In this document: positions 1-15,148 of the stretch, piece after piece
Numbering within the stretch: position 1 is the stretch's first letter
How the letters are laid out: each line of letters starts with the position of its first letter
Source of the DNA: Pseudarthrobacter equi
GTDB taxonomy: Bacteria; Actinomycetota; Actinomycetes; Actinomycetales; Micrococcaceae
Direction: 5' to 3'
Assembly: GCF_900105535.1 (NCBI RefSeq)
Contig: NZ_LT629779.1
Coordinates: 2,232,001-2,296,000 of the forward strand
Length of the DNA stretch: 64,000 nt
The notes under the pieces: generated by a model
Told to the model about the DNA's origin: nothing
Databases searched by the model: none
Seen by the model: only the letters and a program-made list of their open reading frames with translations
Position numbers and translations under genes: made by a program

Positions 1-83
1 GAGCGCTGCCATGAGGAGCCGGAGCCGGGTGGGAGAGATCCGTCCTGTGTTGCTGTTGCTGCGGCTGTGGTTGCGTACTTGGG
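1..83. other. Window-edge sequence without a supported gene
   Basis: This is the sequence 3' of the first minus-strand gene. The open frames here are short and lack coding character. I see no hairpin with a T-run, so the end of the operon is not visible as a terminator. Confidence 0.4.
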
Positions 84-977
84 TCACGGCGTCCCGGCGA
101 TCTCGGCCTCCAGGCTGTGCAGAAGCGCATGCTGCCGGCGGACCTGCTCAATGGATCGGTAAGGCAGCCGATCGCCTTCGTATTCACTGGACAGGTAACC
201 GGACCATCCGTTCTCCTTCAGGGTCTGAAGGATCTCGCGCCAAGGAATCTGGCCGTCAACCAGGTCATCGTCGATGTCGAAGAATTTCGCCTGAATGAAC
301 GACACGTAGGGGAGAACATCCGCCAGGTCCGACATGGGAACGGCAAGGGGTTTACGCCATCCTTCTTCCTGGGCTTCTTCGCTGAGGCCGTCATGCTTGG
401 CGGTGGTGATCGCCCTTTGGAAGATACCGGTGTCGATGAGCAGGCGGAAGTTCTTCGATCCGGTTCGCTCGATGAACGCGATGTACTCGTCCACCACCGG
501 GTGCTTGATGGGAGTGGGCGCATGGATTTCCGGGCAAATAATGAGGTTCAGTTCGGCCGCGAGATCGAGGTTGCGCTCAATCACTTCCTCCCAGATCGGG
601 TGGGGGCGCAGGTCCATGGACACTACACCGATCTTGGGGCGGATTGAGGTGAATCCAAGACGATGGGCCAGCCGAAGATCGCGGGCCAGCATTACAGCGC
701 CCTCATCTGCGGTGAGGTCGCGGTCACGCCACATGCTCGAGTCGATCCACGACCCGTAATTGGTAGGCTCCAGCTGGTATTTTTCGAGCAGCCCGAACCA
801 TTGGTCAATCCACGCGGCGGACGGTTCCGGGTAGTTGGGCACGTGACCTTCGCCCAGGATCTCAATCCCGGTGGCGCCGATGTCAGCTATGTGTGCCATG
901 GCGTCTTCGAGGGTGAGGACGGTGTTGATATCACCGGTGTAGCTGTAGAGGGAGACGCCGTACTTGAGGTTGCTCAT
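84..977 (-). CDS. C-glycoside deglycosidase alpha subunit-like TIM-barrel protein
   Basis: The 297-aa protein belongs to the sugar phosphate isomerase/epimerase (xylose isomerase-like, AP endonuclease 2) TIM-barrel family. Residues placed like the family's metal ligands are visible: Glu150 in CPEIHAP, Asp182 in LIDTG, Gln229 in IQAKF and Glu265 or Glu267 in SSEYEG. On its own it would be called only an isomerase. However, its ATG overlaps by 4 bp the stop of a DUF6379-type gene, and a GMC oxidase lies just upstream. That trio matches the C-glycoside deglycosidases (CarBC, AgCGD, DfgAB), where this subunit carries the Mn-dependent C-C cleaving site acting on 3-oxo-C-glycosides. The family is clear; the C-glycoside role is inferred from the gene trio. 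It is the last gene of an operon that begins at the ABC binding protein near 8239. Confidence 0.8.
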   Translation of the reverse strand: MSNLKYGVSLYSYTGDINTVLTLEDAMAHIADIGATGIEILGEGHVPNYPEPSAAWIDQWFGLLEKYQLEPTNYGSWIDSSMWRDRDLTADEGAVMLARDLRLAHRLGFTSIRPKIGVVSMDLRPHPIWEEVIERNLDLAAELNLIICPEIHAPTPIKHPVVDEYIAFIERTGSKNFRLLIDTGIFQRAITTAKHDGLSEEAQEEGWRKPLAVPMSDLADVLPYVSFIQAKFFDIDDDLVDGQIPWREILQTLKENGWSGYLSSEYEGDRLPYRSIEQVRRQHALLHSLEAEIAGTP

Positions 978-1378
978 GCGAGGACCGTGACCTTTCGCTG
1001 GGACGTGAAAATTGACGGTTGGAATTCAGCCGGAATGTAGGGTGCGTGCAGCGCAATATCAACGCGGACATCGTGGACACCTACCGCCAGGCCGCCTGGG
1101 AGCGGCACCATGACGGTGGCCACTTCATCGAGCTGCCAGCGGACATCGGTGGACTGGCGCAGTTCCTGGATGCTGAAAGTGCGTCCCTGGAGCGTCCAGC
1201 GCGGTACTTCCCGGCTCCATGCCTGACCATCTACGGTGACAGCGACCCCGTCGATGAGGCTTGCCCAGACACCTCGGTAGTTCGGCATGCGCAGGGCTAT
1301 CTCGAAGCCGACAGTTTCGGTTCCCTCGTGGACGTTGCGAAAGCCCCGGCTTTGGATCAGTTCTCGTTCGAGGACCAT
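974..1378 (-). CDS. C-glycoside deglycosidase beta subunit-like (DUF6379)
   Basis: The 134-aa protein resembles the DUF6379 family, the small beta-sandwich subunit of bacterial C-glycoside deglycosidases. It is rich in beta-strand-like stretches and has no signal peptide, so it is probably cytosolic. The start has a GAGGA ribosome site 6-7 nt upstream, which overlaps the stop of the GMC oxidase gene. Its own stop overlaps the ATG of the alpha-subunit gene. That coupling suggests equimolar synthesis of a heteromeric enzyme. The assignment rests on sequence character recalled for the family and on the flanking alpha subunit and oxidase; no catalytic residue can be read from this subunit alone. 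Confidence 0.7.
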   Translation of the reverse strand: MVLERELIQSRGFRNVHEGTETVGFEIALRMPNYRGVWASLIDGVAVTVDGQAWSREVPRWTLQGRTFSIQELRQSTDVRWQLDEVATVMVPLPGGLAVGVHDVRVDIALHAPYIPAEFQPSIFTSQRKVTVLA

Positions 1379-1385
1379 GTTTTCC

Positions 1386-2939
1386 TCACTTCTCTGTGGA
1401 CGTGGAGTTGATTGATTCGGCGATCTGGCGGGCCCCGGCGACGGCCAGGGCCACCCCGGTCAACGTGGGGTTGCAGGCTGTAGGGGTAGGGATGACACCG
1501 TTGCCGGCAACGAACAACCCCCTGACGTCCCACACCTGTCCGGCGGGATCACATACAGCGGTTCCGTCATTGGATGTCCCCATCCGAAGGGTGCCTTGGT
1601 AGTGGAGTGAGGCGCCGGCAGGGAAAGTGAGCGGTTGATCGCCCAGTGGCTCGCCCAAGGACCGGGCGGCGGCAACCACCGATTGGCGTGCTGCGGACAG
1701 TGTCTGCTCGTCGCGTTCGGTGAAGGTGTAGTGGATATTCATGGCTGGCAACCCGTAGGCGTCCGTGGTGTTTTCGGAGAAGACAACGCGGTCTGAGGCT
1801 TGGAGGTCCTTGGCGCAGAACCACCCCAGGCCCACGATCGAACCAGGGATGACATCCCCTGAGATGGGCACCGGTGATGCGTCCAGTTGCATGACCTGCC
1901 CATGAAAAGGCTGCTCATCGGTGAAGGGCACCCAGCTGACCCCGCTTTGGGCGGTGATGGTGGTGTCGCTTGATGAGGCAGCGGGAACATCATCCATGGC
2001 ACCGGTCAACCGGACAGCGTGGACAATCTGAGGCTGGTCGTTTAGGTACCGGCCGAGTGCTTCGGGGCGGATACCGGATGCGAACAGCAGCTGCGGACCG
2101 CGGAGGGCATCGGCGGCAACTACGACGTACCTGGCCGCAATTTCATGCTCGTCTCCTGACTTGGCGTCGCGCACCCGCACACCGCTGACCTCGTCTCCGT
2201 CGGTCAGTACCCGCACAACCACGCTTTCGTCGAACAGGCGGGCCCGGGGGTTGTTCCGCGTCTCGTCACCGAACACCACGTCAGCTCCAGACCAGATGAA
2301 GCGACCGTCGTCAGTGCGGCGGACCGCCAGCGGCATGGGCTGAACACGCCGGTCATGTGCGCGTCCGTCGTCGAGCGCCGCCGACAAACGCGAGCGGACG
2401 AGGTCGGCCAGGGGAGCACCAGCCAAGGCCTCTGAGCTGACCGAGAGGAGGCGTTCGGCCTCGCTCAGAAGCTCGTCCATGTTCGGAAGGAACGCAATAC
2501 GTTCGCTTCCGCCAGGACGCGGGCACGCGCCGGTCCAGTGCGCAGCCATACCGCCAACATTGCTGGAGAATGCAAGGCCCGGCAGTCCGGTCTCGCCGGG
2601 CTGCTGCCAACCGTCGTCGAGGAGGAAGGTCCCGGGCCGCACCGGGCGTGCGACGTCGCGTGCGTACTCTGCGAGGTTCCCGCCGCTTGGCACGGCGCTT
2701 ACTTTTCCCTCGGAACGGCGCTGGGCAACTTCGCGGTCCTGCACGCTTGCGATGTTCTTCACGTGGGATCCGGGGGGATCACTGATGGTCGGTCCGGCCT
2801 CGAAGATGGCAATGCTGGCCTGGGGGCTGAGCTCTGAAAGTATCCGGGCATAGGTGGCTCCGGCAGGGCCGCTGCCGATGATTGCGACGTCAACGACAGC
2901 TGGATAAGGGCGCGCTGAAGGTACTGCTGTGGTGATCAT
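1386..2939 (-). CDS. GMC-family FAD sugar/C-glycoside 3-oxidase
   Basis: This is a GMC oxidoreductase. The Rossmann motif GSGPAGATYARIL near the N-terminus binds FAD. The C-terminal domain carries the catalytic pair His (in SLHYQGTLRMG) and Asn (in CNPTLTG), roughly 45 residues apart as expected for pyranose oxidase-like members. There is no signal peptide. I chose the ATG at 2939 (517 aa) because GGAG lies 7 nt upstream; a GTG at 2975 would add 12 residues but has a poor ribosome site. Relatives in Microbacterium and Arthrobacter (CarA type) oxidise the sugar of C-glycosides at C3, which is the step required before the deglycosidase encoded by the next two genes. A generic sugar 3-dehydrogenase role is the main alternative. 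Confidence 0.85.
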   Translation of the reverse strand: MITTAVPSARPYPAVVDVAIIGSGPAGATYARILSELSPQASIAIFEAGPTISDPPGSHVKNIASVQDREVAQRRSEGKVSAVPSGGNLAEYARDVARPVRPGTFLLDDGWQQPGETGLPGLAFSSNVGGMAAHWTGACPRPGGSERIAFLPNMDELLSEAERLLSVSSEALAGAPLADLVRSRLSAALDDGRAHDRRVQPMPLAVRRTDDGRFIWSGADVVFGDETRNNPRARLFDESVVVRVLTDGDEVSGVRVRDAKSGDEHEIAARYVVVAADALRGPQLLFASGIRPEALGRYLNDQPQIVHAVRLTGAMDDVPAASSSDTTITAQSGVSWVPFTDEQPFHGQVMQLDASPVPISGDVIPGSIVGLGWFCAKDLQASDRVVFSENTTDAYGLPAMNIHYTFTERDEQTLSAARQSVVAAARSLGEPLGDQPLTFPAGASLHYQGTLRMGTSNDGTAVCDPAGQVWDVRGLFVAGNGVIPTPTACNPTLTGVALAVAGARQIAESINSTSTEK

Positions 2940-2990
2940 GCTGTTCTCCGGGAGTCTGTAGAAGGAGGGCTTCACGCCCTGATGGTTTGC

Positions 2991-3878
2991 TCAGCGGGCA
3001 GCTGTGGACAGTGCGGCTTGAGCGTCAAGGAAAAGTCGTCGTTCCCGGCGCCGGTTGGCCTGCCGGGCCGGGTTGGCGATAGGTGAGGCCAGGAGGAGGG
3101 CCTTCGTGTATGCATGTTGCGGCTCGGCGATAACCCGCTCCGTGATGCCTGTCTCCACGATTTCTCCCCGCCGCATCACTGCGACGCGCTCGCTGATGTG
3201 CCGCACCACATCCAGATCGTGAGTGACAAAAAGGAGCGAAACCCCGGTCTGCTCTTGAATGTCGGAGAAAAGTTGAAGAACCCGTGCCTGGGTGGACAAG
3301 TCCAATGCACTGACGGGCTCATCACACACTATGAGCTTGGGATTCCGGCACAACGAACGGGCGATTGCGATGCGTTGCCGTTGGCCACCGGAGAACTCGC
3401 GAGGATAGCGGGTGCTGGCGTTGGAGGGCAGGTTCACAACATCCAGAAGCTCCCGGACCCGTCGTTGTGCATCAACCTTGGACGTCCCGGAAACCTGCAT
3501 CGGCTCGGACAAAATGTCGCTGATGGTCATTGAAGGATTCAGGGAGGTGTAGGGATCTTGAAAAACCACCTGAACGTCGCTGCTGAGTGCCCGGCGTTCC
3601 TTCTTGCTGAGCCTGGTGATTGACCTGCCGTCGAAACGGATGTCGCCGCCGGTCACCGGGGCAAGACCCAGCACGGCTCGGCCAATGGTTGACTTACCGG
3701 AACCGGACTCACCCACAAGCCCCAGGGTTTCCCCGGGTTTGATATCCAGGCTCACGCCTTGCAACGCCCGGAATGTCCGTTTTCTGCCGAATCCGCCAAT
3801 CCTGTAATCAACGGTCAGGTCGGTGATCCGCAGGAGGGGTTCTGCTTCCGGCAAGGCGGTCTGGTTGACGGAAGTCAT
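2991..3878 (-). CDS. Oligopeptide/glycoside-type ABC transporter ATPase (DppF/OppF type)
   Basis: The 295-aa ATPase has a Walker A motif (GESGSGKST), an ABC signature (SGGQRQRIAIARS), Walker B (LIVCDEPVSALD) and an H-loop (VTHDLDVV). It is the second nucleotide-binding subunit of the importer encoded upstream. Its ATG overlaps the stop of the permease-ATPase fusion by 4 bp. The C-terminus is shorter than in typical DppF, which often carries a longer oligopeptide C-terminal extension. Substrate specificity cannot be read from the ATPase. The neighbours suggest uptake of a plant glycoside rather than a peptide. Confidence 0.92.
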   Translation of the reverse strand: MTSVNQTALPEAEPLLRITDLTVDYRIGGFGRKRTFRALQGVSLDIKPGETLGLVGESGSGKSTIGRAVLGLAPVTGGDIRFDGRSITRLSKKERRALSSDVQVVFQDPYTSLNPSMTISDILSEPMQVSGTSKVDAQRRVRELLDVVNLPSNASTRYPREFSGGQRQRIAIARSLCRNPKLIVCDEPVSALDLSTQARVLQLFSDIQEQTGVSLLFVTHDLDVVRHISERVAVMRRGEIVETGITERVIAEPQHAYTKALLLASPIANPARQANRRRERRLFLDAQAALSTAAR

Positions 3879-5710
3879 CGTGCACCTTCTGTCTCGGTGG
3901 TCATGTCGGCCTCGACAGGGTGGTCGGCCGGCGTTTTCGAGGTCGAATCGAGGGCAGAGTCCAAGAGGAGCCGTGTGTACTCTTCCCGGGGGTTGGTGAA
4001 CAACTCAGTGACCTCAGCTACTTCCACAATTTCTCCGTTGCGCATCACGGCCACTTGATCGCACAGATCCGCGACGACGCCGAAGTTGTGGGTCACCAGG
4101 ACCACACCCATGCCGCGTTCCGCCTGAAGGCTGCGAATGAGATCCAGCACGTCGGCCTGAACCGTGACGTCCAGAGCGGTGGTGGGTTCGTCGGCAATGA
4201 GCAGTTCCGGATTGCAGGAAACGGCTCCGGCAATGAGTACGCGCTGCGCCATTCCGCCTGAGACCTGATGCGGGTAGGACTTGAAGACCCGCTCCGGATC
4301 AGGAATGCCTACGCGGGCGAGGAGTTTGAGGGCTTCCTCTTTTGCGGTCTTTGCCGAGATTCCCAAGTGGTGTCGCATTGGCTCCGTGAGTTGGGACCCG
4401 ATGCGGAAGGCGGGATCGAGGTTACTCATGGGCTCCTGGGGGATATAACCGATCCGGGCGCCTCGTAGTCCATTTCGCTCTTTGGGAGTCATCCCGAGCA
4501 GATCCACTCCGGCGAAACTCAAGGTTCCCGCAGTCATGTGGGCTTGCCCGGGCAAGAGTCCCAGGACCGAGAAGGCGGTCTGTGACTTACCCGAGCCTGA
4601 TTCTCCCACCAGGCCAACGATCTGGCCGCGCTCCACCCTCAAGGAAATGCCTTTGACGACGTCGGACTTCTCACCGTTGGGGCGGGGGTAGGAAACCCGG
4701 AGATCGTCGATGACCAGAAGTGCGTCTCCTGGATCCACAGGCGCCTTCTTCATAGGCCGTGCAGGTTCAGGAGTTGAACTGGCGTGCTCGGCAGCTTTTA
4801 CTTTCCTGGCGGGGCCGGCAGATGATCCGTAGTTCGCCAGGGCGTCGCGGAAGCCGTTTCCCACCAAGGTGCAGGCCATGACCGTCAACACCAGTGCAGC
4901 GCTTGGCCAGATGAGCAGCCCGGGCGCGTTGAAGATGTTTTGCGATGCGTCATTGAGCATCAGGCCCCAGCTGGCTTTGTCGGAAGAACCAAGACCGAGG
5001 AAGGCGATGCCTGCCTCGATTCCAATGCCGGCACCTGCCAGCAGTGCGGCTTGAATGATGGTGGGCGTGATGACTACAGGAAGGATGTGGCGGACCATGA
5101 TGCGGATATCGCTCAAGCCGGAGACCCGGGCTGCGTCCACGTACAACTCTTCCCGCACCGCCCGGACCGAGCCGCGGATGAGCAGGAACACCGAGGGGGC
5201 GATCAATATGCCGAAGACCACCAGTGCAAGTGAGGTGCTGCGTCCTACACGGGCCAAAACCACAAGGAGCACAACTATTGCCGGCAGTGACAGCAGGGCG
5301 CCGCTGATCCACATGCTGACGCCGTCGATCCAGCCCTGGCGGTAACCCGCCAGGAGCCCGGTCGGTACTCCAATCAGCAGGCTCACCGCAATGACAATCG
5401 CGGCACTGGAAAGGCTGGTTTGGGCGCCGTAGACGAGGTTCGCCAGCACGTCGCGGCCCACTCCATCTGCGCCCAGCGGATGTTCAGCCGTGAAAGGCGG
5501 TGCGAGGACATCGGCGAGGCGGGTGGCAGTGGGGTCGTAAGAGGAGATCAAGGGTGCGAGGACCGCCACCACAACGAGCAACGCGAGGAACACGAGCGAG
5601 ATCACTGCCGCCGGTTCACGAAGGAACTTCTTGATCAGTTTGTCGCCTTGGGGTGCGGAGCTAACCACTTCAAGCGACTTGCGGGTGCCGGTGACAAGGT
5701 TATCGGTCAT
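3875..5710 (-). CDS. ABC transporter permease-ATPase fusion (DppC-DppD)
   Basis: The 611-aa protein joins two normally separate subunits. Residues ~1-300 are a DppC-like permease with about six hydrophobic segments and the cytoplasmic EAA-type loop (VDAARVSGLSDIRIMVRH). After a charged, proline-rich linker (~300-330) comes a DppD-like ATPase with Walker A GESGSGKSQ, signature SGGMAQRVLIAGA and Walker B LLIADEPTTALD. Such fusions occur repeatedly in actinobacterial oligopeptide-family importers, so this is not an assembly artefact. The ATG overlaps the stop of the DppB-like gene and the stop overlaps the next ATPase start, giving tight translational coupling. Confidence 0.92.
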   Translation of the reverse strand: MTDNLVTGTRKSLEVVSSAPQGDKLIKKFLREPAAVISLVFLALLVVVAVLAPLISSYDPTATRLADVLAPPFTAEHPLGADGVGRDVLANLVYGAQTSLSSAAIVIAVSLLIGVPTGLLAGYRQGWIDGVSMWISGALLSLPAIVVLLVVLARVGRSTSLALVVFGILIAPSVFLLIRGSVRAVREELYVDAARVSGLSDIRIMVRHILPVVITPTIIQAALLAGAGIGIEAGIAFLGLGSSDKASWGLMLNDASQNIFNAPGLLIWPSAALVLTVMACTLVGNGFRDALANYGSSAGPARKVKAAEHASSTPEPARPMKKAPVDPGDALLVIDDLRVSYPRPNGEKSDVVKGISLRVERGQIVGLVGESGSGKSQTAFSVLGLLPGQAHMTAGTLSFAGVDLLGMTPKERNGLRGARIGYIPQEPMSNLDPAFRIGSQLTEPMRHHLGISAKTAKEEALKLLARVGIPDPERVFKSYPHQVSGGMAQRVLIAGAVSCNPELLIADEPTTALDVTVQADVLDLIRSLQAERGMGVVLVTHNFGVVADLCDQVAVMRNGEIVEVAEVTELFTNPREEYTRLLLDSALDSTSKTPADHPVEADMTTETEGAR

Positions 5711-6648
5711 GAGACACGAACTTTCGGATTGATCCAGCCTTGCGCCAGATCGACGAGGAGATTCACGACGACGACGAGCACCACCGTGACAAGGACGATT
5801 CCGAGCACCACGGGCAGGTCGCCACGGCCGGCTGAGGTATTGGCCTGGGTGCCGATTCCGGGGATATTGAAGACTTTCTCAACGATCACTGAGCTGGAGA
5901 TGGCCACGATGAACATCAGGGATACCGTTGTGAGGCTTGGTCCGGCGGCGCTGCGCAAGGCATGCTTCACCACGACGCTTCGCTCGGGGAGGCCACGGCT
6001 GCGCAGTGTTCGAACAAAGTCCTGCTGCATCACATCGATCATGGACCCCCGGACCTGCAAAGCGATGGAGGCCAGGGAGCCTAATGCCAACGCAATGACC
6101 GGGAGTGAGATGGATGCGAGCCACTTGCCGGGAGAAGCCGCGAAAGCAGTGAATCCGGTAGCCGGAAACATGCGCAGTTGGACTGCGAAAACCAAAGCCA
6201 GGACCAGGGCTACCAGGAAGCCGGGAATTGCCTGGACCAGGGTGGATACCACCTGCAGGCCGCGGTCGAGTCGTCCTCGCCGCAAGGCAGCTGTCACACC
6301 GATCAAGGTTCCAAAACAGGCAGCGAGGATCAGTGATCCGATCACCATGGAAAGGGTGGGCGGAAGGGTTTGGGAGAGTAGTTCTCCTACTGGCTGGTTG
6401 GTGAACCAGGACCGGCCCAAATCTCCACGAACGGCTGATCCGAGCCACTGGAAGTATTGGGTGATCAACGGTTCATCAAGGCCCAGTTGTTGGCGCTTGG
6501 TTTCCACCTGTTCGGCTGAGGCTACGGGACCCAGAACCTGACGGACGGGGTCTTGCCCCGTGAGGTTCAGGAGGAAGAACGTCGCAGTGGAGATAACGAA
6601 CATGAGCACCAGTCCTGAGGCCAGGCGGCGAAGGATAAACATCAACAT
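5707..6648 (-). CDS. Oligopeptide-family ABC transporter permease (DppB type)
   Basis: The 313-aa integral membrane protein begins with the typical N-terminal helix followed by an extracellular loop ending in a DPVRQVLGP-like segment. It has about six membrane spans and the cytoplasmic motif TLRSRGLPERSVVVKHALR. An AAGGAG ribosome site lies 6-7 nt before the ATG at 6648; a second ATG two codons in is possible. With the DppC half of the next protein it would form the membrane channel of the importer. A stable stem-loop separates it from the binding-protein gene upstream. Confidence 0.93.
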   Translation of the reverse strand: MLMFILRRLASGLVLMFVISTATFFLLNLTGQDPVRQVLGPVASAEQVETKRQQLGLDEPLITQYFQWLGSAVRGDLGRSWFTNQPVGELLSQTLPPTLSMVIGSLILAACFGTLIGVTAALRRGRLDRGLQVVSTLVQAIPGFLVALVLALVFAVQLRMFPATGFTAFAASPGKWLASISLPVIALALGSLASIALQVRGSMIDVMQQDFVRTLRSRGLPERSVVVKHALRSAAGPSLTTVSLMFIVAISSSVIVEKVFNIPGIGTQANTSAGRGDLPVVLGIVLVTVVLVVVVNLLVDLAQGWINPKVRVS

Positions 6649-6691
6649 GGCAGCTCCTTGGGCTTCGGGAAGATGACGGATGCGTAGGGGA

Positions 6692-6715
6692 GGCCGGCCC
6701 TGGGATGGACCGGCC
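6692..6715 (-). promoter_or_regulatory. Intercistronic stem-loop between binding-protein and permease genes
   Basis: GGCCGG at 6692-6697 pairs with CCGGCC at 6710-6715, with further CC/GG pairing inside. It lies between the stop of the binding-protein gene (6722) and the start of the permease (6648). Stem-loops here commonly stabilise the upstream mRNA so that the binding protein is made in excess. There is no T-run, so full termination is less likely. Confidence 0.5.
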
Positions 6716-6721
6716 GCCCAT

Positions 6722-8239
6722 CTACTTCTGCGCGGGAGCCAGGCCCCAGAGAGGCGGCAGAGTGGAGTAGCGCTGCGGAGTAACAGTGATGTCGGCGCTG
6801 CTGGCGAAGACGTTGTCAGACTGGATGTAGGGAGCGAACCAGGCTTGATCCACCAGATAGGTGTTCAGCTGACGGAACGTTTCGGTTTGGGCCTCACCGG
6901 TTTCGCCTTGGGCCTTGTTGATCAGGTCAACCACAGTGGGGTCGGAGACGTGGAACGGGTTCCAGAGTGATTCGGGAGTGAGCGCGATCTGGGCGAAATC
7001 CCAGGGGCGCGGGCTGTTGAGTCCGAAAATCGCTGCGGGATACTTTCCTGCCAACAGATCCGAGATGAAGGTCTGGCCGTTCACCGGCTGGTACTGCGGT
7101 GTAATGCCGATAGCCGTCAGGGCTTCAGTCACGGCCGCTTGCTGGTCCGGATAGATGGGTGATACATCCGGCATGGGCAGGATGAAGCCGTTTGCATAAC
7201 CGGCGTCGGAGAGAAGCTTCTTCGCGCCGTCCACATCGAAGGGGTACTTCTTGTCCAACTCAGGGATGTAGGCGTCGCTGGTGGAACTGAAGACCTGGCT
7301 GGTGGCCTTACCCTTACCGCCGAAGACTTGCGCGTGGATGGCATCGCGATCCAATGCCATGTTGATTGCCTGGCGTACCTTGGGCTCGGCGAGCGCAGGA
7401 ACCAGGGAACCCTTGCGGTCGAACAAGTAGAGGCCGCTGGTGGTGTAGGCGGGGTTGGACTGGATGTTCAGGCCTGCGGACTTGAGGCTGTTTGAATCCT
7501 TGTCGGTGACCACTGCGAAGTCTGTTTCACCGGCCCGCAATGCGTTGAGGATTGCGTTGTTGTCGTTGAAGACCGTGACTTCGACGGTGTCGAACGGGAA
7601 GTCTTTGGCGTTCCAGTAGTCCGGATTTCTGGTGTAGGCGTACTTGATGCCGGTCTGGGACTTTGCGGCATCAAGGATATAGGGGCCGGAACCTACGGGA
7701 GTGGTGTCCAGTTCCGGGGTTCCCAAGGCCTTCGGGCTGGCAAGGACGCCGGCGGTTCCCCCCAAGTTCGGCACAAGGGACGGGTCCGGAGCGGAGAGCG
7801 TTACCGTGAGATTGGTGGCGTCGGTGACAGCTACCTCTGTGATGAAGCGCAGTTGCCCGCCGGCTTCACCAGTACCCTTGCGGGCGGAATCAAGATTGGC
7901 TTTCACCGCGGCGGCATCCAGGGGCGTCCCATCGGTAAATTTGACGCCATCCCTGATCGTGAGCGAAAGCTTGGTCCGGGCGTCGTCGTAAGACCATTTG
8001 GTCACGATATTCTCGGCGGGTTCGCCCTCGTTGGTGTTCCGGAAGAGGGAATCGTAGACCGGCTGAAGGAACTGGGTGGTGGGGCCGGTACCGAAATTGC
8101 CGGGTGCGAAAGACTCAGGTGTTCCGATAGCTGCGATATCCAATTCCGTGGAGGCGGCGGAACCGCCAGGGGAGGATCCGTTGCAGGCGGTAAGCGCCAT
8201 GACGGCTGTGACGGCGGCGATGCCGACTAATTTGCGCAT
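6722..8239 (-). CDS. ABC transporter substrate-binding lipoprotein (SBP family 5)
   Basis: The 505-aa family 5 solute-binding protein (peptide, nickel and glycoside class) starts with a lipoprotein signal, MRKLVGIAAVTAV then a lipobox ending LTAC, so the mature protein should be tethered outside the membrane. The ATG at 8239 has AGGAG upstream; an earlier in-frame TTG at 8254 is less convincing. Characteristic segments include TNEGEPAENIVTKW, DGVKFTDGTPLDA and GSGPYIL. Family 5 proteins bind peptides but also oligosaccharides and aryl glycosides. The downstream C-glycoside enzymes suggest the latter. First gene of the operon. Confidence 0.92.
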   Translation of the reverse strand: MRKLVGIAAVTAVMALTACNGSSPGGSAASTELDIAAIGTPESFAPGNFGTGPTTQFLQPVYDSLFRNTNEGEPAENIVTKWSYDDARTKLSLTIRDGVKFTDGTPLDAAAVKANLDSARKGTGEAGGQLRFITEVAVTDATNLTVTLSAPDPSLVPNLGGTAGVLASPKALGTPELDTTPVGSGPYILDAAKSQTGIKYAYTRNPDYWNAKDFPFDTVEVTVFNDNNAILNALRAGETDFAVVTDKDSNSLKSAGLNIQSNPAYTTSGLYLFDRKGSLVPALAEPKVRQAINMALDRDAIHAQVFGGKGKATSQVFSSTSDAYIPELDKKYPFDVDGAKKLLSDAGYANGFILPMPDVSPIYPDQQAAVTEALTAIGITPQYQPVNGQTFISDLLAGKYPAAIFGLNSPRPWDFAQIALTPESLWNPFHVSDPTVVDLINKAQGETGEAQTETFRQLNTYLVDQAWFAPYIQSDNVFASSADITVTPQRYSTLPPLWGLAPAQK

Positions 8240-8555
8240 GTTTCTCCTAGACAAGGCGTCGAATGCTCAGCTTCGAGTGATCCGACTGTTCTCCGGCGAC
8301 AACGCTACGGAGATGGATAAGTACTGCGATGAATGGTGGCTTACATGCCTTTGAAAGGCGCCTGGCTTCACAGGAAATCCTTTGGATTCCTTGAATGCAT
8401 TACTGGCGCAGGGCCGCGGGATGCAGGTGGTGTGCTCCATCTCGGTCTCCCTCGCCATTGAGGTTTATGGTGCTGGTTGAGCGTTTTGTGGCGCCTGTTA
8501 CAACGATAATCCGGTGACCGGAAGAAGTCAACAACTTCTTCCGGTCTTCGGAATA
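8240..8555. promoter_or_regulatory. Upstream region of the glycoside-import operon
   Basis: This ~315-bp stretch between the binding-protein gene and the 3' end of the ROK gene has no supported gene. It must hold the operon promoter on the minus strand. I see a perfect small palindrome GCCTTTGAAAGGC at 8347-8359, a short inverted repeat around 8376-8388 (AATCC / GGATT), and the large palindrome at 8516-8546 described separately. I could not place -35 and -10 boxes with confidence. Confidence 0.5.
8516..8546. promoter_or_regulatory. Perfect 13-bp inverted repeat, candidate ROK operator or terminator
   Basis: GACCGGAAGAAGT (8516-8528) is followed by a 5-nt loop and its exact complement ACTTCTTCCGGTC (8534-8546). 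It lies 10 bp beyond the ROK gene stop, so it could be a U-tract-less terminator. The right arm and its flank recur in related form (about 17 of 20 matches) at 9952-9971 in the ROK/GH3 divergent promoter, which argues for a shared operator. Confidence 0.5.
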
Positions 8556-9815
8556 TCAGGCCGAAACACCTTCTTTGGTTTGACTCAGGGGTTGCATCAG
8601 CCGCTCCAGGAGCCCGGGCAGGTTGTCTTTGGAGAAGAGCTCGCCCAGAACAAGCTGGGCGGCACCGACGACGCCGCCTACCTGCTCGTCAAGGGCAGAT
8701 AACTCCACGAGCAGGTCCGGTGCGCCCGTGGAGGGCAGCCGTTCAAGGACGGCTTGCTGTATGGGCTTGAGCACGATGTCTTTGGCACGGGCAATGCCAC
8801 CGCCGACTACCAGCATGTGAGGAGCGAAGAAACTGACCAAGGTTGCCAGGCTGCTTCCAAGGAGTGCCGCTGTTCGGTGGAGCAGCTCCTTTGCGGCGGC
8901 GTCTTGGTGCTCAGCGGCCAGTGTCACGTCGTAGGCGCGAACACGTCCGGTCTCCTTGAGGACTTGTGCGAGGTAGGGGCTGCGTCCCGTTTCAGCCAAC
9001 ATCAAGCCGTCCCGCTCAATCGCCCATCCACTGGTGACCGCCTCAAGGCAGCCTGTGCGCCCGCACCTGCAGGCAACCACTCCGGCCTCCGGGACGGCCA
9101 CATGGCCAATGGAACCCGCCAGGCCATGGGAGCCCCGGTAGAGCCTGCCATCGGCGATGAGGGCAGCTCCAACCCCGGCGCCGGCCCCGAAATAGAGCAA
9201 GTGCTTTGCCTTGGCAGCCCGCGGATTGCTCTCTATTTCAGCGAGCGCCAGAAGATTAACGCGATTGTCCACCCATGCCGGAACCGGCCAGCGAGCCGCG
9301 AACTCTTCCCGTACGGGGTAGTCCTCCCAACCCGGCATGACCGGTACGCCAACGGGAGTGCCGGTATCGAAATTGACCGGACCGGAGAGCCCCACGCCGA
9401 TCCCCAGCAGGTTGTTGCCCCCTTGCTCCCTGATGACGTCATCGACGATCCCATTGACCTGGCCCAGGATCCGCTCGGGCCCTTCGCTGATCTCGCACAG
9501 CTCCCGGTGGCGGGTGCCCAGCAGGGAGCCGGCCAGATCGGAAGCACTGACCACCATTTCATTGGACGCAATGTCCACGCCTATGACGTAGCCGGCCTGG
9601 GCGTTGAGGGACAGCAGCTTGGCGGTCCGCCCGCCCGTAGAGGGAGCGCGGCCGGGGGAATGGATAAGCCCGATTTGTTCGAGTTCTGCAACCCGCTCGG
9701 CAACAACACTGCGCCCCAGCCCTACGTGATCGGTCAGGCTGGCCTGCGTAATGCCGTCCTGCCAACGGATTGTTTCCAGTACGGACGCGAGTCCGGTATA
9801 CCGCTCTATGGCCAT
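8556..9815 (-). CDS. ROK-family transcriptional repressor
   Basis: The 419-aa regulator has an N-terminal winged helix-turn-helix (ITQASLTDHVGLGRSVVAERVAELEQIGLI) and a C-terminal ROK sugar-kinase fold. The ROK zinc signature CRCGRTGCLEAV and glycine-rich ATP/sugar motifs (GVDIASNEM, GIGVGLSGPV, FGAGAGVGAALI) are visible. It lies between the glycoside import/C-glycoside operon (same strand, downstream) and the GH3-GH106-GH43 genes (divergent), which makes it the obvious local regulator. ROK repressors usually release DNA on binding the pathway sugar. Related palindromes flank it at 8516-8546 and 9941-9958. Confidence 0.9.
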   Translation of the reverse strand: MAIERYTGLASVLETIRWQDGITQASLTDHVGLGRSVVAERVAELEQIGLIHSPGRAPSTGGRTAKLLSLNAQAGYVIGVDIASNEMVVSASDLAGSLLGTRHRELCEISEGPERILGQVNGIVDDVIREQGGNNLLGIGVGLSGPVNFDTGTPVGVPVMPGWEDYPVREEFAARWPVPAWVDNRVNLLALAEIESNPRAAKAKHLLYFGAGAGVGAALIADGRLYRGSHGLAGSIGHVAVPEAGVVACRCGRTGCLEAVTSGWAIERDGLMLAETGRSPYLAQVLKETGRVRAYDVTLAAEHQDAAAKELLHRTAALLGSSLATLVSFFAPHMLVVGGGIARAKDIVLKPIQQAVLERLPSTGAPDLLVELSALDEQVGGVVGAAQLVLGELFSKDNLPGLLERLMQPLSQTKEGVSA

Positions 9816-10008
9816 TGAATCTCTTCCTGGGTGCTCGCGCCCACTGCGTCAGCGCTGTGGTGATGGATCCTGTCCGTTTTGTGGAACCATCCGGGCACTC
9901 ACAGGTGCCATCATGCTCCAACTCCACGTCACCAAACAAGAAAAGTCTAGCAACTTTTGCCGGTCATCGGATAAACTCTTCCAAATTCCCACCTAGCAAG
10001 GAGATTTT
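9816..10008. promoter_or_regulatory. Divergent promoter region ROK / GH3 with inverted repeat
   Basis: The 193-bp divergent spacer contains AAAAGT (9941-9946), a 6-nt spacer, and ACTTTT (9953-9958), followed by GCCGGTCATCGGA. This closely resembles the right half of the 8516-8546 palindrome. AAGGAG at 9997-10002 is the ribosome site of the GH3 gene, so the palindrome lies about 50-70 bp upstream of its start, a position suited to repression. Confidence 0.55.
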
Positions 10009-11868
10009 ATGCGACGGCCCACGAGCACGAATGACGACGGCGTCCAGTACCGCGACCTGAACGGCAACGGAGTGATGGACCCCTACGAAGATCCGCGCCT
10101 GGACTCCGCGAGCCGCGCGAAGGATCTGCTCGAACGCTTGTCGATAGAAGAAAAAGTCGGGCTGCTATTCAACACGGTGATGGTTGTTGGCGAGCCGGGT
10201 GACCACGATACTGCGAGTCCGTTCGGGCCGGAGACTCCTCGCGACTTTGTAGTAGGCCAGTCTATTAACCACTTCAATATTGGCCGCTTCCCTTCGGCAG
10301 AGCACATGGCGCGTTGGCAGAACTGCATGCAGGAACTCGCCGAGCTTGCTCCCCACGGGATTCCCATCACCTTTGCCACCGATCCCCGCCATGGTTTCGC
10401 GCAGAACGATGGCATGGTCTTCGCAACCGGCTCGTTCTCACAGTGGCCCGAGCCCATGGGCCTCGCAGCCATCGGCGATCCTGCGTTAGTGAGTGAATTC
10501 GCCGAGACCGCAAGGAGCGAGTATGTCGCCGTCGGACTTCGTGCAGCTATTCACCCGCAGATCGACTTGGCCTCTGATCCGCGCTGGGCGCGTCAATTGC
10601 AGAGCTTCAGTTCAAACTCAGCGGTGACGTCAGAGTACGGGTCGCTGTTGATCGAAGGTCTACAGGGCCAGAAGCTGTCATCCACGAGCGTCGCCTGCAC
10701 GGCAAAGCACTTCCCGGGAGGCGGGGCGCAAGAAGACGGGGAGGATCCCCACTTCCCACAAGGCAAAGCTCAGGTTTATCCAGGGGGCAACTTCGAAGAG
10801 CACCTGGCACCGTTCCGAGCAGCTATCGCCGCCGGAACCAGCGCGATCATGCCTTACTACTCACTGGCGAAAGACCTGCTCATTGACGGCGTAGCCGTGG
10901 AGGAAGTGGGCTTCGCCTACAACAAATACCTGATCTCGACACTCCTACGCGAAGATCTTGGGTTCACTGGGGTTGTACTTACTGACTGGCAGCTCGTCAC
11001 AGACCTTGAAGTCTTTGGCTTGCCGTTCCCTGCCAAGGCGTGGGGTGTGGAGCACCTCAGCCGCATTGAGCGTGTTGAGAAGCTCTTCGACGCCGGCGCA
11101 GATCAATTCGGGGGCGAGTCCTGCACGGATTTGGTCCTTGAGTTGCTGGCCAGCGGACGGCTCTCCCAGAAGCGCGTGGACGCGTCAGCGCTGAAAGTCT
11201 TGCAGGTCAAGTTCGAACTCGGCCTGTTCGACAATCCGTACGTCGACGAGAACGCGGTTGCAACCATTGTGGGTTCCGAGTCTTTCCGGGCTGCTGGGCA
11301 CCGCGCCCAAGCGGAGGCCGTCACCGTTCTGAAAAACACTGGTGTATTGCCGCTGCGAGCGGACACCCGGGTATACGTCGAAGGCGTCAACCCGGAAGTC
11401 GTCGATGATCGGGTCACCCTTGTGGATGACAAGAAGGACGCCGACGTAGCTCTTGTGCGCCTCACTGTCCCCTACGAGCCGCGCAACGAGTATTTCCTGG
11501 ACGCTATGACGCATCAGGGTAGCCTCGACTTCCCGGACGAGGAGGTCGCACGGGTGCGAGCACTTGCAGCAGAACTCCCCGTGATCCTCGACGTCTACCT
11601 TGAACGAGCAGGGATCCTGACCCCGTTCGATGAGCTCGCAGAGGCCGTCACCGTGAACTTCGGCGCTTCTGACGCTGCCTTGCTCGACGCGTTAACAGGA
11701 ACTATTCCTCCCCGAGGTCGCCTGCCGATCGAGCTGCCTCGCTCCATGGCCGCCGTCGAAGCATCACATCCTGACGTCCCCAACGACACCAAAGATCCGC
11801 TCTACCGCTACGGCGCCGGCCTCAGCCTGCCGTCAACTTCGCGGAGGGAATCCAGGATGCTGACGTGA
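10009..11868 (+). CDS. Glycoside hydrolase family 3 beta-glucosidase-like enzyme
   Basis: The 619-aa GH3 enzyme has no signal peptide, so it should act on imported glycosides. The TIM-barrel domain shows the KHFPGGG motif (~233-239) and the nucleophile Asp326 in GVVLTDW. The second alpha/beta domain begins near residue 390 (AQAEAVTVLKNTGVLPL), and the acid/base Glu lies in it but cannot be assigned by eye. A strong AAGGAG precedes the ATG. The opening residues DLNGNGVMDPYEDP are typical of a GH3 subgroup in soil bacteria. It is divergent from the ROK gene and its stop overlaps the GTG of the GH106 remnant (GTGA), so the two were co-translated before the latter decayed. Beta-glucosidase or beta-xylosidase activity is possible. 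Confidence 0.92.
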   Translation: MRRPTSTNDDGVQYRDLNGNGVMDPYEDPRLDSASRAKDLLERLSIEEKVGLLFNTVMVVGEPGDHDTASPFGPETPRDFVVGQSINHFNIGRFPSAEHMARWQNCMQELAELAPHGIPITFATDPRHGFAQNDGMVFATGSFSQWPEPMGLAAIGDPALVSEFAETARSEYVAVGLRAAIHPQIDLASDPRWARQLQSFSSNSAVTSEYGSLLIEGLQGQKLSSTSVACTAKHFPGGGAQEDGEDPHFPQGKAQVYPGGNFEEHLAPFRAAIAAGTSAIMPYYSLAKDLLIDGVAVEEVGFAYNKYLISTLLREDLGFTGVVLTDWQLVTDLEVFGLPFPAKAWGVEHLSRIERVEKLFDAGADQFGGESCTDLVLELLASGRLSQKRVDASALKVLQVKFELGLFDNPYVDENAVATIVGSESFRAAGHRAQAEAVTVLKNTGVLPLRADTRVYVEGVNPEVVDDRVTLVDDKKDADVALVRLTVPYEPRNEYFLDAMTHQGSLDFPDEEVARVRALAAELPVILDVYLERAGILTPFDELAEAVTVNFGASDAALLDALTGTIPPRGRLPIELPRSMAAVEASHPDVPNDTKDPLYRYGAGLSLPSTSRRESRMLT

Positions 11869-12715
11869 CCGGGATGGACAGGAAATCGAGCGAAGTTCTC
11901 TGGAGTGAGTTCGTTGATCCACCGGATTCGGCACGGCCGCGTGCGTGGTGGCACTGGATGGACGGCAACGTGCACCTCGAGGGCATTCGGGCGGATCTTC
12001 GTTGGCTCCACTCTGTGGGCGTCCGAGGAGTTCAGGCCTTCGACGGTGCGTTAGCTAATCCGCTTGTAGTGGAGGAAGCTGTGATTCCCGGCAGCGAGCA
12101 GTGGCGCGAAGCTATTGCCATTGCTGTCGCGACGGCCCGCGACCTCGGCTTGGACTTCACTGTTGCCACTTCTGCGGGGTGGAGCGCCTCGGGAGCACCG
12201 TGGGTTGAAAAGGCCGATGCCATGCGCAAGCTGGTGTGGTCGCAGACTGTGGTCGAAGGTGGCGAACTGACCCAGCTCAACAAGCTCCCTAACGTCGCAG
12301 GACCCTATCAAGACATCCCCACATGGGGTGTCGAGCCGCGGGAAGGCTCAGGCGATGTCAAAGACCTCGTCGCACTGGCCATCCCTTTCCACGGCACTCA
12401 CGATGCTTTGGAGCCCGCGTTGGTCCGGTCCAGTTCACCGATGTAGCCGATATGGCGCGCGTCAAAATCAATGGCGGGGACGCTGGAGTTCTCTGGAAAG
12501 CTCCCTACCGGGTGTCCACCAGCGCACTGAGGTCAGGAACGAACCGGATCGAAGTAAGCGTCACCAGTCCGTGGCGCAATCGACTGATTGCTGAGGCCCG
12601 CAGCAGCACCGGGACGCTCTACCCGCCAATGACGGGTGTCTTCACCGACGATGCCGAAATCCTGCCTGCAGGTCTACTTGGGCCAATGAGCCTGGTCTAC
12701 AACCACCGTCCCTGA
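11865..12715 (+). pseudogene. GH106 alpha-L-rhamnosidase gene with large internal deletion
   Basis: The first ~185 codons (11865-~12420) match the start of GH106 enzymes: RPRAWWHWMDGNV, LRWLHSVGVRGVQAF and TVATSAGWSASGAPWV. The last ~95 codons (~12422-12715) match the C-terminal jelly-roll that ends these proteins: ARVKINGGDAGVLWKAPYRV, SPWRNRLI and PAGLLGPMSLVYNH. The two parts are in different reading frames, and the first frame stops at 12446. Full GH106 proteins are about 900-1,100 aa, so roughly 600-800 codons including the catalytic core are missing. No single open frame can make the enzyme. The deletion point is near 12418-12424. Confidence 0.85.
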
Positions 12716-12740
12716 TCTCCGCTAACGAAAGACATGATGC

Positions 12741-14282
12741 ATGAGAAATCAGATAACGCCTCCGGCTGTGAGCCTGGAAGGCCAACGCCGTGCCGACCTC
12801 GGCAATGGAACCTACCTGAACCCGGTGTTCGCCGGGGACCACCCGGACCCGGCAATCCTCCGCGACGGGGATGACTACTACCTGACCTTTTCGTCCTTTG
12901 AGTCCACGCCCGGCCTCATTATCTGGCACTCGCGTGACCTGTTGAATTGGCAACCGCTGGGGCCCGCCCTTTCCACACCCATCGGCTGCGTGTTTGCCGT
13001 CGACATGTGCAAAGTGGACGGCCGGTACTTTATCTACATACCGATCATTCCCACCGCCATCTCGCCGGACCCAACGGCGCCTGTGCTGACCTATGTCATC
13101 CACGCCGAGAGCATGGCGGGACCCTGGAGTGAGCCCATCAACCTGGGCATCGAAGGGCATATCGATCCCGGGCACGTGGTGGGAGAGGACGGCAGCCGCT
13201 ACCTGTTTCTCAGCGGAGTCAGCCGTGTTCGGCTCACCGACGACGGACTGGCTACGAACGGTCCAGTGGAGCACGTCTACGACGGCTGGCGCTATCCCGA
13301 GGACTGGGTGGTTGAAGCCTACGCACTGGAAGGGCCCAAGCTGACACGCCGTGGTGAGTGGTTCTACCTCACGACGGCGGTTGGCGGCACGTCTGGTCCG
13401 CCCACCGGTCACATGGTCACGGTCGCCCGCTCCCGCTCCGTCAATGGCCCGTGGGAGGACTGTCCCCGCAATCCCATCATCAGGACATGGAGTGCCGACG
13501 AGCCTTGGTGGAGCAAGGGCCATGCCACTTTGTTCGAGGGCCCCAACGGCCAGTGGTGGAGCATCTACCACGGCTACGAAAACGGGTTCGCCACCCTTGG
13601 CCGGCAAACGCTTTTGGAACCGATCGAGTGGGACGAGGACGGATGGCCCCGGGCAGTCGGGGGGACCCTTTCTGCGGCACTGCCCGCGCCACTGCCAACT
13701 GTGTCTGCAACCGGCGAACAACCCCACGGATCGCCGTTGTCCGATAATTTCTCCACCGAACGCTTTGGGACACAATGGTCATTTCATGCCCCGTCAAATG
13801 ACGAGTATCTTCGGGCATTCTTTGACGGCGGCCTGGTTCTGCAAGCCCAGGGATCAGGCCCGTCAGACAGCTCGGCGCTGACGTGTATCGTCGGCGACCG
13901 GCGATACGAGATCACGGTGGAGATGGAAATCGGCGACGGCGCCCAAGGCGGGTTGCTGCTGTACTACAGCGACCGCCTGTTCTGCGGCATGGGCCACGAC
14001 GGCGGCAGCATGACCAGCTACCGCGCGGGCAGGGCGATTCCGTACTGGCGTGAACCTGCGCCAGCGGCCCGGACCATGCACCTTCGAATAGTCAACGACA
14101 ACCACATCGTCACGCAGTACTACAGCCTGAACGGAACGGACTGGACCAGGCATGGATTGCGTTTCAACGTGGAGGGTTACAACACAAATACGGCCGACGA
14201 ACTCCTCAGCCTGCGCCCGGCATTGTTCGCAGTCGGGACAGGGGAAGTGCGGTTCACGAACTTCACTTACCGTGCCTTCTAG
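12741..14282 (+). CDS. Glycoside hydrolase family 43 xylosidase/arabinofuranosidase
   Basis: The 513-aa protein has an N-terminal five-bladed propeller and a C-terminal beta-sandwich of the DUF1349/GH43 C-terminal type, the layout of the GH43 beta-xylosidase subfamilies. Likely catalytic residues are Asp36 (base, in GDHPDPAILRD), Asp142 (in GHIDPGH) and Glu197 (acid, in ALEGPK). There is no signal peptide, so it would cut short, imported oligosaccharides or glycosides. It follows the decayed GH106 gene on the same strand. Beta-xylosidase or alpha-L-arabinofuranosidase activity is likely; which one cannot be told from sequence alone. Confidence 0.92.
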   Translation: MRNQITPPAVSLEGQRRADLGNGTYLNPVFAGDHPDPAILRDGDDYYLTFSSFESTPGLIIWHSRDLLNWQPLGPALSTPIGCVFAVDMCKVDGRYFIYIPIIPTAISPDPTAPVLTYVIHAESMAGPWSEPINLGIEGHIDPGHVVGEDGSRYLFLSGVSRVRLTDDGLATNGPVEHVYDGWRYPEDWVVEAYALEGPKLTRRGEWFYLTTAVGGTSGPPTGHMVTVARSRSVNGPWEDCPRNPIIRTWSADEPWWSKGHATLFEGPNGQWWSIYHGYENGFATLGRQTLLEPIEWDEDGWPRAVGGTLSAALPAPLPTVSATGEQPHGSPLSDNFSTERFGTQWSFHAPSNDEYLRAFFDGGLVLQAQGSGPSDSSALTCIVGDRRYEITVEMEIGDGAQGGLLLYYSDRLFCGMGHDGGSMTSYRAGRAIPYWREPAPAARTMHLRIVNDNHIVTQYYSLNGTDWTRHGLRFNVEGYNTNTADELLSLRPALFAVGTGEVRFTNFTYRAF

Positions 14283-14326
14283 GCTGGGCTACAACAAGGC
14301 CAGTAGCGCTGGTGGCTCTCCGAACT

Positions 14327-14484
14327 TCAGGCGAGCGTCCGAACAGCAGGCCGACTGGCAGCGGTGCCGGGCCGGAAGTTCTCCACCACGATGTCAGCGG
14401 TGGCGGCGAGCCTATTGACCGCTTCCAGTCCTTGCGCGGTTTTCAGGTCAACGGCGAAGGATCCTGCTGGGATCCGGCACCACG
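14327..14484 (-). pseudogene. Fragment of CaiB/BaiF family III CoA-transferase
   Basis: Read on the minus strand, this segment encodes about 45 residues containing SFAVDLKTAQGLEAVNRLAA followed by TADIVVENFRPGTA. This is the highly conserved N-terminal segment of family III CoA-transferases, whose full length is near 400 aa. No open frame continues on either side. It ends at a TGA at 14327-14329. It is a fossil, not a functional gene. Confidence 0.7.
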
Positions 14485-14566
14485 AGTTCTTTAAGGGGCC
14501 CTTCTGCCGCTGCCGTGGACGGGTCGGAGCCGGGTTCCGCTGTTGGTGGATGGGGTTGGGTGAGAG

Positions 14567-14908
14567 TCATGCCTGCGTCGCCATTTCTTTGCTGCCCCTT
14601 GAGGCTTCCGTCGCGGAGTTGCGCACGAGGGTGTCAATGTGGAACTTTTTCGGTTTGCTGTTGCTGAGGAACACCCCGCAGTGGTGATTGAGTTCGAGGA
14701 TGACGACCGGGCTCTGGATGCAGTCGTAGAACGGTTCGTCCTCGCTGTATCCACCGATCCATGAGAACCAGGTGTCCTGGTAGTGGGCGCTGATCTCCCC
14801 GCGACGCGCCGCTGCCGGTCCGGCGGGGAGGTATTCGATGAAATCGGCGATGATGACCAGGACGGTGTTGGCGCCATAGGAGCCAACCTCCCGAAGCGGC
14901 ACGGCCAA
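14567..14908 (-). pseudogene. C-terminal remnant of a DUF3500 protein
   Basis: This 113-aa frame contains RRGEISAHYQDTWFSWIGGY, EDEPFYDCIQSPVVILELNH and a CGVFLSN / FHIDTLVRN stretch. These are the hallmark C-terminal segments of DUF3500 proteins, which are normally 350 aa or longer. The N-terminal two thirds are absent: the next gene starts on the other strand at 14945. The usual histidines of the SPV(I/L)xxExDHQ region are partly changed. A short expressed protein is possible but a decayed gene is more likely. Confidence 0.65.
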
Positions 14909-14944
14909 GGGGTAGCGTGTGCCCTAGCCGACGAAGGAGTCACG

Positions 14945-15148
14945 ATGAGCTACAAATATCGAACTGTTCGGGTTCGCGGTACCGAGCTAGTTGGAACAAT
15001 TGCCAGGAAGCACGGGAGTGCGGCTGAAATTTACGAAACCTCCAAAGACCTGAGCACATCAGTCATTCCGGTGTTCTTCGAAGCAACGGGCGAGATCCGT
15101 TTCTTCGACAGGTCAGTGCTGGAGGACGTTGTGGCACCCACCACTTAA
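14945..15148 (+). CDS. Hypothetical 67-aa protein
   Basis: Starting at ATG 14945 with a good GAAGGAG ribosome site 8-10 nt upstream, this encodes a compact 67-aa protein (MSYKYRTVRVRGTELVGTIA to the C-terminal LEDVVAPTT). It has no membrane segment or signal. I do not recognise the family. Third-position GC and the clean ribosome site favour a real gene over a chance frame. It stands alone between a DUF3500 remnant and a long non-coding zone, so context says nothing about its role. Confidence 0.5.
   Translation: MSYKYRTVRVRGTELVGTIARKHGSAAEIYETSKDLSTSVIPVFFEATGEIRFFDRSVLEDVVAPTT

Follow-up and report, generated by a model that had tools for sequence, protein, structure and literature searches.

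How would a soil actinobacterium bring plant C-glycosides, in which the sugar is attached through a carbon-carbon bond that is hard to break, into the cell and cleave them? The question is raised by a gene cluster at one end of a 64,000-nucleotide stretch of the Pseudarthrobacter equi chromosome (the window; G000:C1:2232001-2296000, within a 4.46-Mb single-contig genome), in which a first-pass annotation had proposed a complete pathway for C-glycoside uptake and cleavage. We conclude, with a probability of about 0.75 that covers the C-glycoside catabolic role, that the genes of this locus form an operon for the breakdown of plant aryl C-glucosides. The predicted enzymes are a GMC-family glycoside 3-oxidase and the alpha and beta subunits (CGDA and CGDB) of a C-glycoside deglycosidase (CGD). 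Published sources are cited by PMC number. The cluster comprises seven genes, all on the minus strand and read from position 8239 to position 84:

6722..8239, minus strand: family 5 solute-binding lipoprotein (SBP; SBP_bac_5, E 2.8e-61; lipobox LTAC, by eye; ATG 8239 with AGGAGA)
5707..6648, minus strand: OppB-type permease (BPD_transp_1, E 7e-34, and BPD_transp_1_N)
3875..5710, minus strand: OppC permease-OppD ATPase fusion (OppCD) of 611 amino acids (OppC_N, BPD_transp_1 and ABC_tran in a single frame)
2991..3878, minus strand: OppF-type ATPase (ABC_tran, E 3e-33; NCBIfam OppF/GsiA/DppF-like, under the curated cut-offs)
1386..2975, minus strand: GMC glycoside 3-oxidase (GMC_oxred_N/C; 7qf8, E 9e-202, 674 bits; 7dve, E 1e-194, 651 bits; start codon uncertain)
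974..1378, minus strand: CGD beta subunit, CGDB (PF19906 CGDB, 131.9 bits, cut-off 27.6)
84..977, minus strand: CGD alpha subunit, CGDA, a TIM barrel of the short, lid-less form (AP_endonuc_2; matches to CGD alpha subunits)

Neighboring genes overlap by 4 nt at three junctions (OppB/OppCD, OppCD/OppF and CGDB/CGDA) and are separated by 73 nt (SBP/OppB), 15 nt (OppF/GMC) and 7 nt (GMC/CGDB) at the others. The SBP gene was placed at ATG 8239, immediately downstream of AGGAGA, instead of the upstream TTG at 8254 given in the list of open reading frames (ORFs). The seven same-strand genes of the first-pass annotation, with their ATGA-type overlaps and short gaps, were all found at its coordinates, including the end at 8239, and Pfam profiles confirmed each of its families: a family 5 importer, a GMC oxidase, a DUF6379-type protein and a TIM-barrel protein. 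PF19906 would be the former DUF6379, a name that relatives of the protein still carry.

The oxidase and both deglycosidase subunits align with solved 3-oxidases and C-deglycosidases over almost their full length. As proposed, the GMC protein is of the CarA type, its top matches being the oxidases PsG3Ox (7qf8) and MtCarA (7dve), with similarity to solved relatives beginning near residue 20. His458 and Asn502 align with H440 and N484 of PsG3Ox, and the insertion-1 region and the ASPVP substrate loop also align with 7qf8 in the sequence alignment. By fold, His/Asn pair, insertion-1 and substrate loop, the predicted protein fits the glycoside 3-oxidase class. Matches of the small protein include the CGD beta subunits of 8qrz (E 1.6e-37) and DfgB (E 2e-21), and the TIM-barrel protein matches CGD alpha subunits, the nearest being 8qrz, a structure titled C-glucosyl deglycosidase, followed by DfgAB. 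A xylose-isomerase-like TIM alpha subunit of the CGD type is thus present with CGDB encoded beside it, in agreement with the earlier view of the pair as a two-subunit deglycosidase; similarity of the small protein to DUF6379 deglycosidase subunits, on which that view hinged, was found.

The metal site agrees with published enzymes in part. In AgCGD2, Mn2+ is coordinated by Glu147, Asp179, His269, Lys271 and Glu305, and the catalytic residues are His149 and Glu307 (PMC8563793). The equivalent residues of the window CGDA are E150, D182, Q229, K231 and E265, with catalytic H152 and E267; six of the seven are conserved, and of the metal ligands, which the first-pass annotation had asked to have checked, the equivalents of Glu147, Asp179, Lys271 and Glu305 are kept and His269 is replaced by Gln. 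We aligned 126 sequences (the window CGDA, its paralogue, the best 120 of 1330 database matches and four loci). The six conserved residues are kept in all 126, and Gln occupies the His269 position in every one of them and in 8qrz, a count that, being drawn from the best 120 of 1330 matches, holds for near relatives. Gln is not found at this position in 8qvc, DfgA or DgpC, and two CGDA paralogues of L052, a locus of the same genus, carry His. The fold used for CGDA was a prediction on 30 sequences (pLDDT 86); a single-sequence fold (pLDDT 61) was poor and was set aside. Replacement of the ligand could mean that the complex is inactive or chemically altered, since Ala at the metal-ligand positions, including the H269 equivalent, dramatically reduces the activity of PuCGD and MiCGD (PMC8563793). 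We consider this very improbable, as 8qrz, with the same Gln, was deposited as a wild-type C-glucosyl deglycosidase, the near relatives are uniform at this position, and the co-inheritance of CGD with the oxidase (see below) suggests function. Since Gln occurs in a deposited CGD, His269 is no strict mark of the family; one published ligand is unconserved, in a subfamily that includes this deposited enzyme. Gln at residue 229, which is also present in some long forms, may mark a metal-site subclass.

The operon proteins resemble several characterized systems. The C-glucosyl deglycosidase of Microbacterium testaceum (8qrz, 8un2) shares the short TIM alpha domain, the CGDB domain and the Gln, with 60% identity to the window protein in a structural alignment, but holds both parts in one chain of 435 amino acids, whereas the window has separate genes. 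DfgAB (EuCGD) of Eubacterium cellulosolvens likewise pairs a short-form alpha subunit with a CGDB partner; EuCGD has no lid domain, like the window CGDA (PMC8563793), and the dfg system deglycosylates homoorientin and isovitexin (PMC11170127). It differs in the His at its metal site and in its partner, the DgpA homologue DfgE instead of a GMC oxidase. In the PsG3Ox cluster of Pseudarthrobacter siccitolerans (7QF8), the oxidase is of the same type, with the catalytic His/Asn and insertion-1, and CGD genes adjoin it, although two CGD B/C pairs are described there (PMC10646112). The soil actinobacterial enzymes CarA (MtCarA, 7DVE) and MiCGD, AgCGD1 and AgCGD2 also represent a GMC 3-oxidase (PMC10807413) and two-subunit CGDs (PMC8563793), with AgCGD2 differing in the lid domain of its alpha subunit and in His269. 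Finally, an Agrobacterium operon (GlycDH, AtOGE, AtHYD, Gfo) follows the same logic of oxidation, elimination, hydration and reduction (PMC10628242), and a hydratase homologue is found downstream of the window operon as well. In Agrobacterium, however, the eliminase, AtOGE, acts on O-glycosides and has no second subunit, and GlycDH takes the place of the GMC oxidase.

The oxidase and the deglycosidase are inherited together. Of the 206 genus genomes surveyed, 49 have CGDB. A match to the oxidase with an E value of 1e-60 or lower, a limit fixed ahead of the control, was found in these same 49 genomes and in none of the other 157. The two genes lie within 5 kb of each other in 48 of these 49 genomes and within 2 kb in 47, taking the nearest pair per genome among the CGDB matches listed; the exception, G508, is a fragmented assembly. 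As the 49 genomes are related, they do not represent 49 independent events, and the association exceeds chance. More broadly, and with our genome included, CGDB occurs in 16 of 396 genomes in a survey of the order and, in one of the phylum, in 5 of 396 at E 0.001, 3 of them over the cut-off. Among named loci (L005, L006, L007, L008, L009 and L011 apparently come from the same genomes as L049, L048, L046, L047, L045 and L051 and were counted once), the whole set is found in five Arthrobacter. The nearest named record found with the locus, very near records possibly excepted, is Arthrobacter sp. Leaf137 (CGDA 99%). The set is also present in Nocardioides insulae DSM 17944, at identities of 43% (SBP), 52% (OppB), 60% (OppCD), 66% (OppF), 63% (GMC), 52% (CGDB) and 62-63% (CGDA). 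There a Gfo/Idh gene separates OppF from GMC, and the two CGD subunits form an in-frame fusion, which G207 has too. L013 is a short contig that ends before the importer region.

CGD genes are also found in several copies per genome. Five or six CGDB matches occur in 28 of the 206 genus genomes, and three or more in 30. Our genome carries a second, divergent CGD locus (L004:5927-16148, G000:C1 about 4.290-4.300 Mb) in which a long-form CGDA with Gln at the ligand position is accompanied by CGDB, GH3, GH43 and SBP_bac_1 proteins, by two genes that look by eye like sugar permeases, and by a GMC oxidase encoded on the opposite strand. L052 (G451:C53) is an island with several CGD genes, a GMC oxidase, a CUT1-like importer, an MFS transporter, a hydratase-like TIM protein and Gfo/Idh; its MFS, hydratase and Gfo/Idh proteins are 65%, 77% and 56% identical to those of the window and its downstream region. 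The joining of several CGD genes in this island, the one examined, suggests that it combines deglycosidases of different specificity; the genus probably has similar loci elsewhere.

By which route would the substrate reach these enzymes? No signal peptide was seen on them by eye, so the substrate must enter the cell. The window encodes a whole family 5 ABC importer, with its SBP, two BPD_transp_1 permeases and two ABC ATPases, one permease and one ATPase being fused. OppCD orthologues of at least 60% identity are found in 10 of the 206 genus genomes, all 10 with CGDB; in nine of them the importer, oxidase and CGD lie side by side (our locus and L043-L050), and in the tenth, G506, the cluster is divided between contigs. 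The next matches (57-59%) come from six genomes, of which G448 alone has CGDB, unlinked. Of the 16 genomes with CGDB in the order, G000, G085 and G207 are the only ones in which, among the matches listed, full-length OppCD lies next to CGD. The permease-ATPase fusion, which the first-pass annotation had pointed out, was discarded as a novelty: the same genome encodes at least two others of full length, with 53% and 41% identity. The SBP was also rejected as a guide to the substrate, as the relatives obtained from family and PDB searches were generic members of family 5 (peptide, nickel, heme and others), and the structure search returned no informative close relative of known ligand.

Several observations weigh against the C-glucoside operon as we read it. 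On the side of transport, the family 5 importer is absent from the fetched 20 kb of L010 (Agromyces terreus) and L011 (Paenarthrobacter aurescens TC1); their CGDA is 81% and their oxidase 67-68% identical to ours, and an MFS_2 sugar transporter lies upstream on the opposite strand. L014 (Microbacterium barkeri) has none of the genes of this importer in its fetched 20 kb; its MFS protein is 58% identical to the one at the window edge. L052 has its CUT1-like importer (so named from 39-55% identity to L004 genes), and in L012 OppF and GMC are separated by a Gfo/Idh gene, so that the gene order differs. Transporter type thus varies while oxidase and CGD persist, and at least three types, the family 5 importer among them, occur at CGD loci. 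Family 5 importers mostly carry peptides, nickel or oligosaccharides, so the enzymes might cleave C-glycosides while the importer is a mere neighbor with oligosaccharides, peptides or other cargo. This account, which overlaps with ours and disputes only the importer, draws on the uninformative SBP structures and on the use of MFS_2 or CUT1-like transporters elsewhere. We hold it to be rather unlikely because the importer genes share the operon, with 4-nt overlaps and tight spacing, because G207 and Nocardioides insulae retain the linkage at 43-67% identity and whether CGD is split or fused, and because the OppCD orthologue is restricted to CGD genomes within the genus. The earlier proposal of a dedicated importer is therefore upheld as far as linkage goes: the importer is well supported as part of the locus, and its transport of C-glycosides is what we infer.

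On the side of substrate, the class is assigned from sequence and linkage, the His269 ligand of AgCGD2 is Gln in the window CGDA, and the GH3, GH35 and GH43 neighbors would equally suit the use of O-glycosides or plant oligosaccharides. PuCGE, an enzyme of the CGD type, also cleaves a 3-keto-O-glucoside, 3-keto-phlorizin (PMC10628242), and CarA-type oxidases accept O-glycosides, to a lesser degree (PMC10807413). The operon might then serve plant O-glycosides generally, with the oxidase and a CGD-type lyase acting by beta-elimination on 3-keto-O-glucosides and glycosidases doing the rest. Four glycoside hydrolase families near the operon fit this picture, as does DfgCD of dfgABCDE, which acts on O-coupled flavonoid glucosides (PMC11170127) and is known here by activity, not by family. 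It is nonetheless improbable in our judgment, as the nearest solved relatives are CGDs, namely 8qrz and then DfgAB, which cleaves 3-oxo-homoorientin (PMC11170127), and the closest oxidases form the C-glycoside 3-oxidase group. The C-glycoside role in the first-pass annotation stands as to its enzyme families; specificity for C- over O-glycosides is not fixed by sequence, as relatives take O-glycosides. For the C-glucoside operon, nearness to DfgAB and PsG3Ox points to C6-glucosyl flavones and xanthones (isovitexin, isoorientin, mangiferin), possibly with further O-linked sugars, as the likeliest substrates.

The operon runs past position 1 of the window, with an MFS transporter gene and five further genes on the same strand (L003 is the stretch of the same genome that contains them; window position equals L003 position minus 10000):

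1..87, minus strand: 5' portion of the gene for a DHA2-type MFS transporter, 4-nt overlap with the CGDA gene, continuing off the window
L003:8522-10087, minus strand: the whole DHA2-type MFS transporter gene, with that overlap (TIGR00711 efflux_EmrB, 207 bits, under the cut-off of 230.2)
L003:7489-8676, same strand as the operon: first Gfo/Idh enzyme
L003:5310-7499, same strand: GH3
L003:3607-5244, same strand: GH35-like (NCBIfam GH35, 495 bits, slightly under the cut-off of 500)
L003:2220-3497, same strand: second Gfo/Idh enzyme (closest NCBIfam levoglucosan dehydrogenase, 328 bits, under the cut-off of 650)
L003:1216-2217, same strand: second TIM-barrel protein (match to 2-hydroxy-3-keto-glucal hydratase 8ro4)

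The downstream TIM-barrel protein matches the hydratase 8ro4 at E 4.7e-37 and 131 bits, and is closer to 2zds, a Streptomyces coelicolor protein (559 bits). By the pathway logic of PMC10628242, such a hydratase is expected to convert the CGD product to 3-keto-glucose. A complete pathway, as first claimed for the window, is therefore found when the genes outside it are counted and not on the window genes alone.

These predictions suggest the following route. The lipoprotein SBP would capture the glycoside, OppB/OppCD/OppF would import it, and cytoplasmic GH3, GH35-like and GH43 enzymes (GH106 in relatives) might trim O-linked sugars. The GMC oxidase would form the 3-keto-glucoside and H2O2, and CGDA/CGDB would cleave the C-C bond by metal-assisted beta-elimination to give the aglycone and 2-hydroxy-3-keto-glucal, two steps for which homology argues strongly. 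With moderate support from homology, the second TIM-barrel enzyme would hydrate 2-hydroxy-3-keto-glucal to 3-keto-glucose and Gfo/Idh would reduce this to glucose. The DHA2-type MFS transporter may export the aglycone, and a ROK protein may repress the operon.

The ROK gene lies upstream of the SBP gene, followed by a divergent group of glycosidase genes:

8521..8541, strand not assigned: palindrome GAAGAAGT-TGTTG-ACTTCTTC within a 27-nt perfect inverted repeat (8518-8544); weak
8556..9815, minus strand: ROK-family regulator, likely a local repressor (ROK, E 1e-43, and HTH_24)
9941..9958, strand not assigned: palindrome AAAAGTTGCTAGACTTTT, resembling the first, between the divergently oriented genes; weak
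10009..11868, plus strand: GH3 glycosidase, divergent (Glyco_hydro_3, E 3.5e-37)
11865..12446, plus strand: GH106 alpha-L-rhamnosidase gene reduced by internal deletion to a remnant (matches only positions 2-140 of the 743 in the Glyco_hydro_106 profile)
12741..14282, plus strand: GH43 glycosidase, divergent (Glyco_hydro_43, E 2e-81)

All orthologous loci long enough to show the region upstream of the SBP gene have a ROK gene there, at only 35-36% identity in L012 (on the other strand) and L043. Two AAGT-N5/6-ACTT palindromes flank the ROK gene, and the 8518-8544 repeat directly follows its stop codon. The core of the 8521-8541 palindrome is mostly kept in related loci, L043 being without it, and it may be a ROK operator or a hairpin that terminates ROK transcription. 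The motif AAGT-N5-ACTT has one occurrence in the window against 0.36 expected, so the palindromes are only a lead. Scans for promoters and terminators in L003 and for Rfam families in window positions 1-15000 added nothing. The GH106 gene (window 11865-12715) matches residues 8-194 and 962-1064 of its 1066-amino-acid homologue in L046; ORFs of 1058-1067 amino acids adjoin the GH3 gene in L045-L048, and Pfam assigns the one tested, that of L045, to GH106. In Paenarthrobacter sp. No. 37, an isolate from soil, the degradation of puerarin can be induced (PMC12724307), which would fit a regulated operon and is not evidence on the window operon.

The enzymes themselves belong to ordinary, known families, and the locus is notable for its completeness, with an importer, a probable aglycone exporter and sugar salvage. 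Whether it forms a self-contained module for decorated plant C-glycosides, in which a dedicated ABC importer supplies trimming glycosidases, 3-oxidase, lid-less Gln-type CGD, hydratase and reductase and the DHA2-type MFS transporter expels the aglycone, we regard as evenly balanced. Arthrobacter relatives and Nocardioides would retain such a module as a cassette, and elsewhere CUT1-like and MFS_2 transporters would be the alternatives. The module would be, to our knowledge, the first route by which C-glycosides are taken up (and the aglycone is exported).

The words transporter and permease are absent from the main text, figures aside, of PMC10807413, PMC8563793, PMC10646112, PMC10628242, PMC11673046 and PMC12724307, and the available passages of PMC11170127 mention transporters, none of them tied to C-deglycosylation genes. 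A paper on a C-glycoside or C-glucoside importer was not found in the literature searched, which leaves figures and most subscription papers outside its scope, so that absence is unproven. The uptake route of plant C-glycosides into soil bacteria thus appears not yet assigned. The tightly co-inherited importer-oxidase-lyase cassette allows a direct genetic and binding test of uptake, and its SBP is a candidate biosensor for mangiferin, isovitexin and similar compounds. As a whole, the locus may encode the entire conversion of glycoside to glucose.

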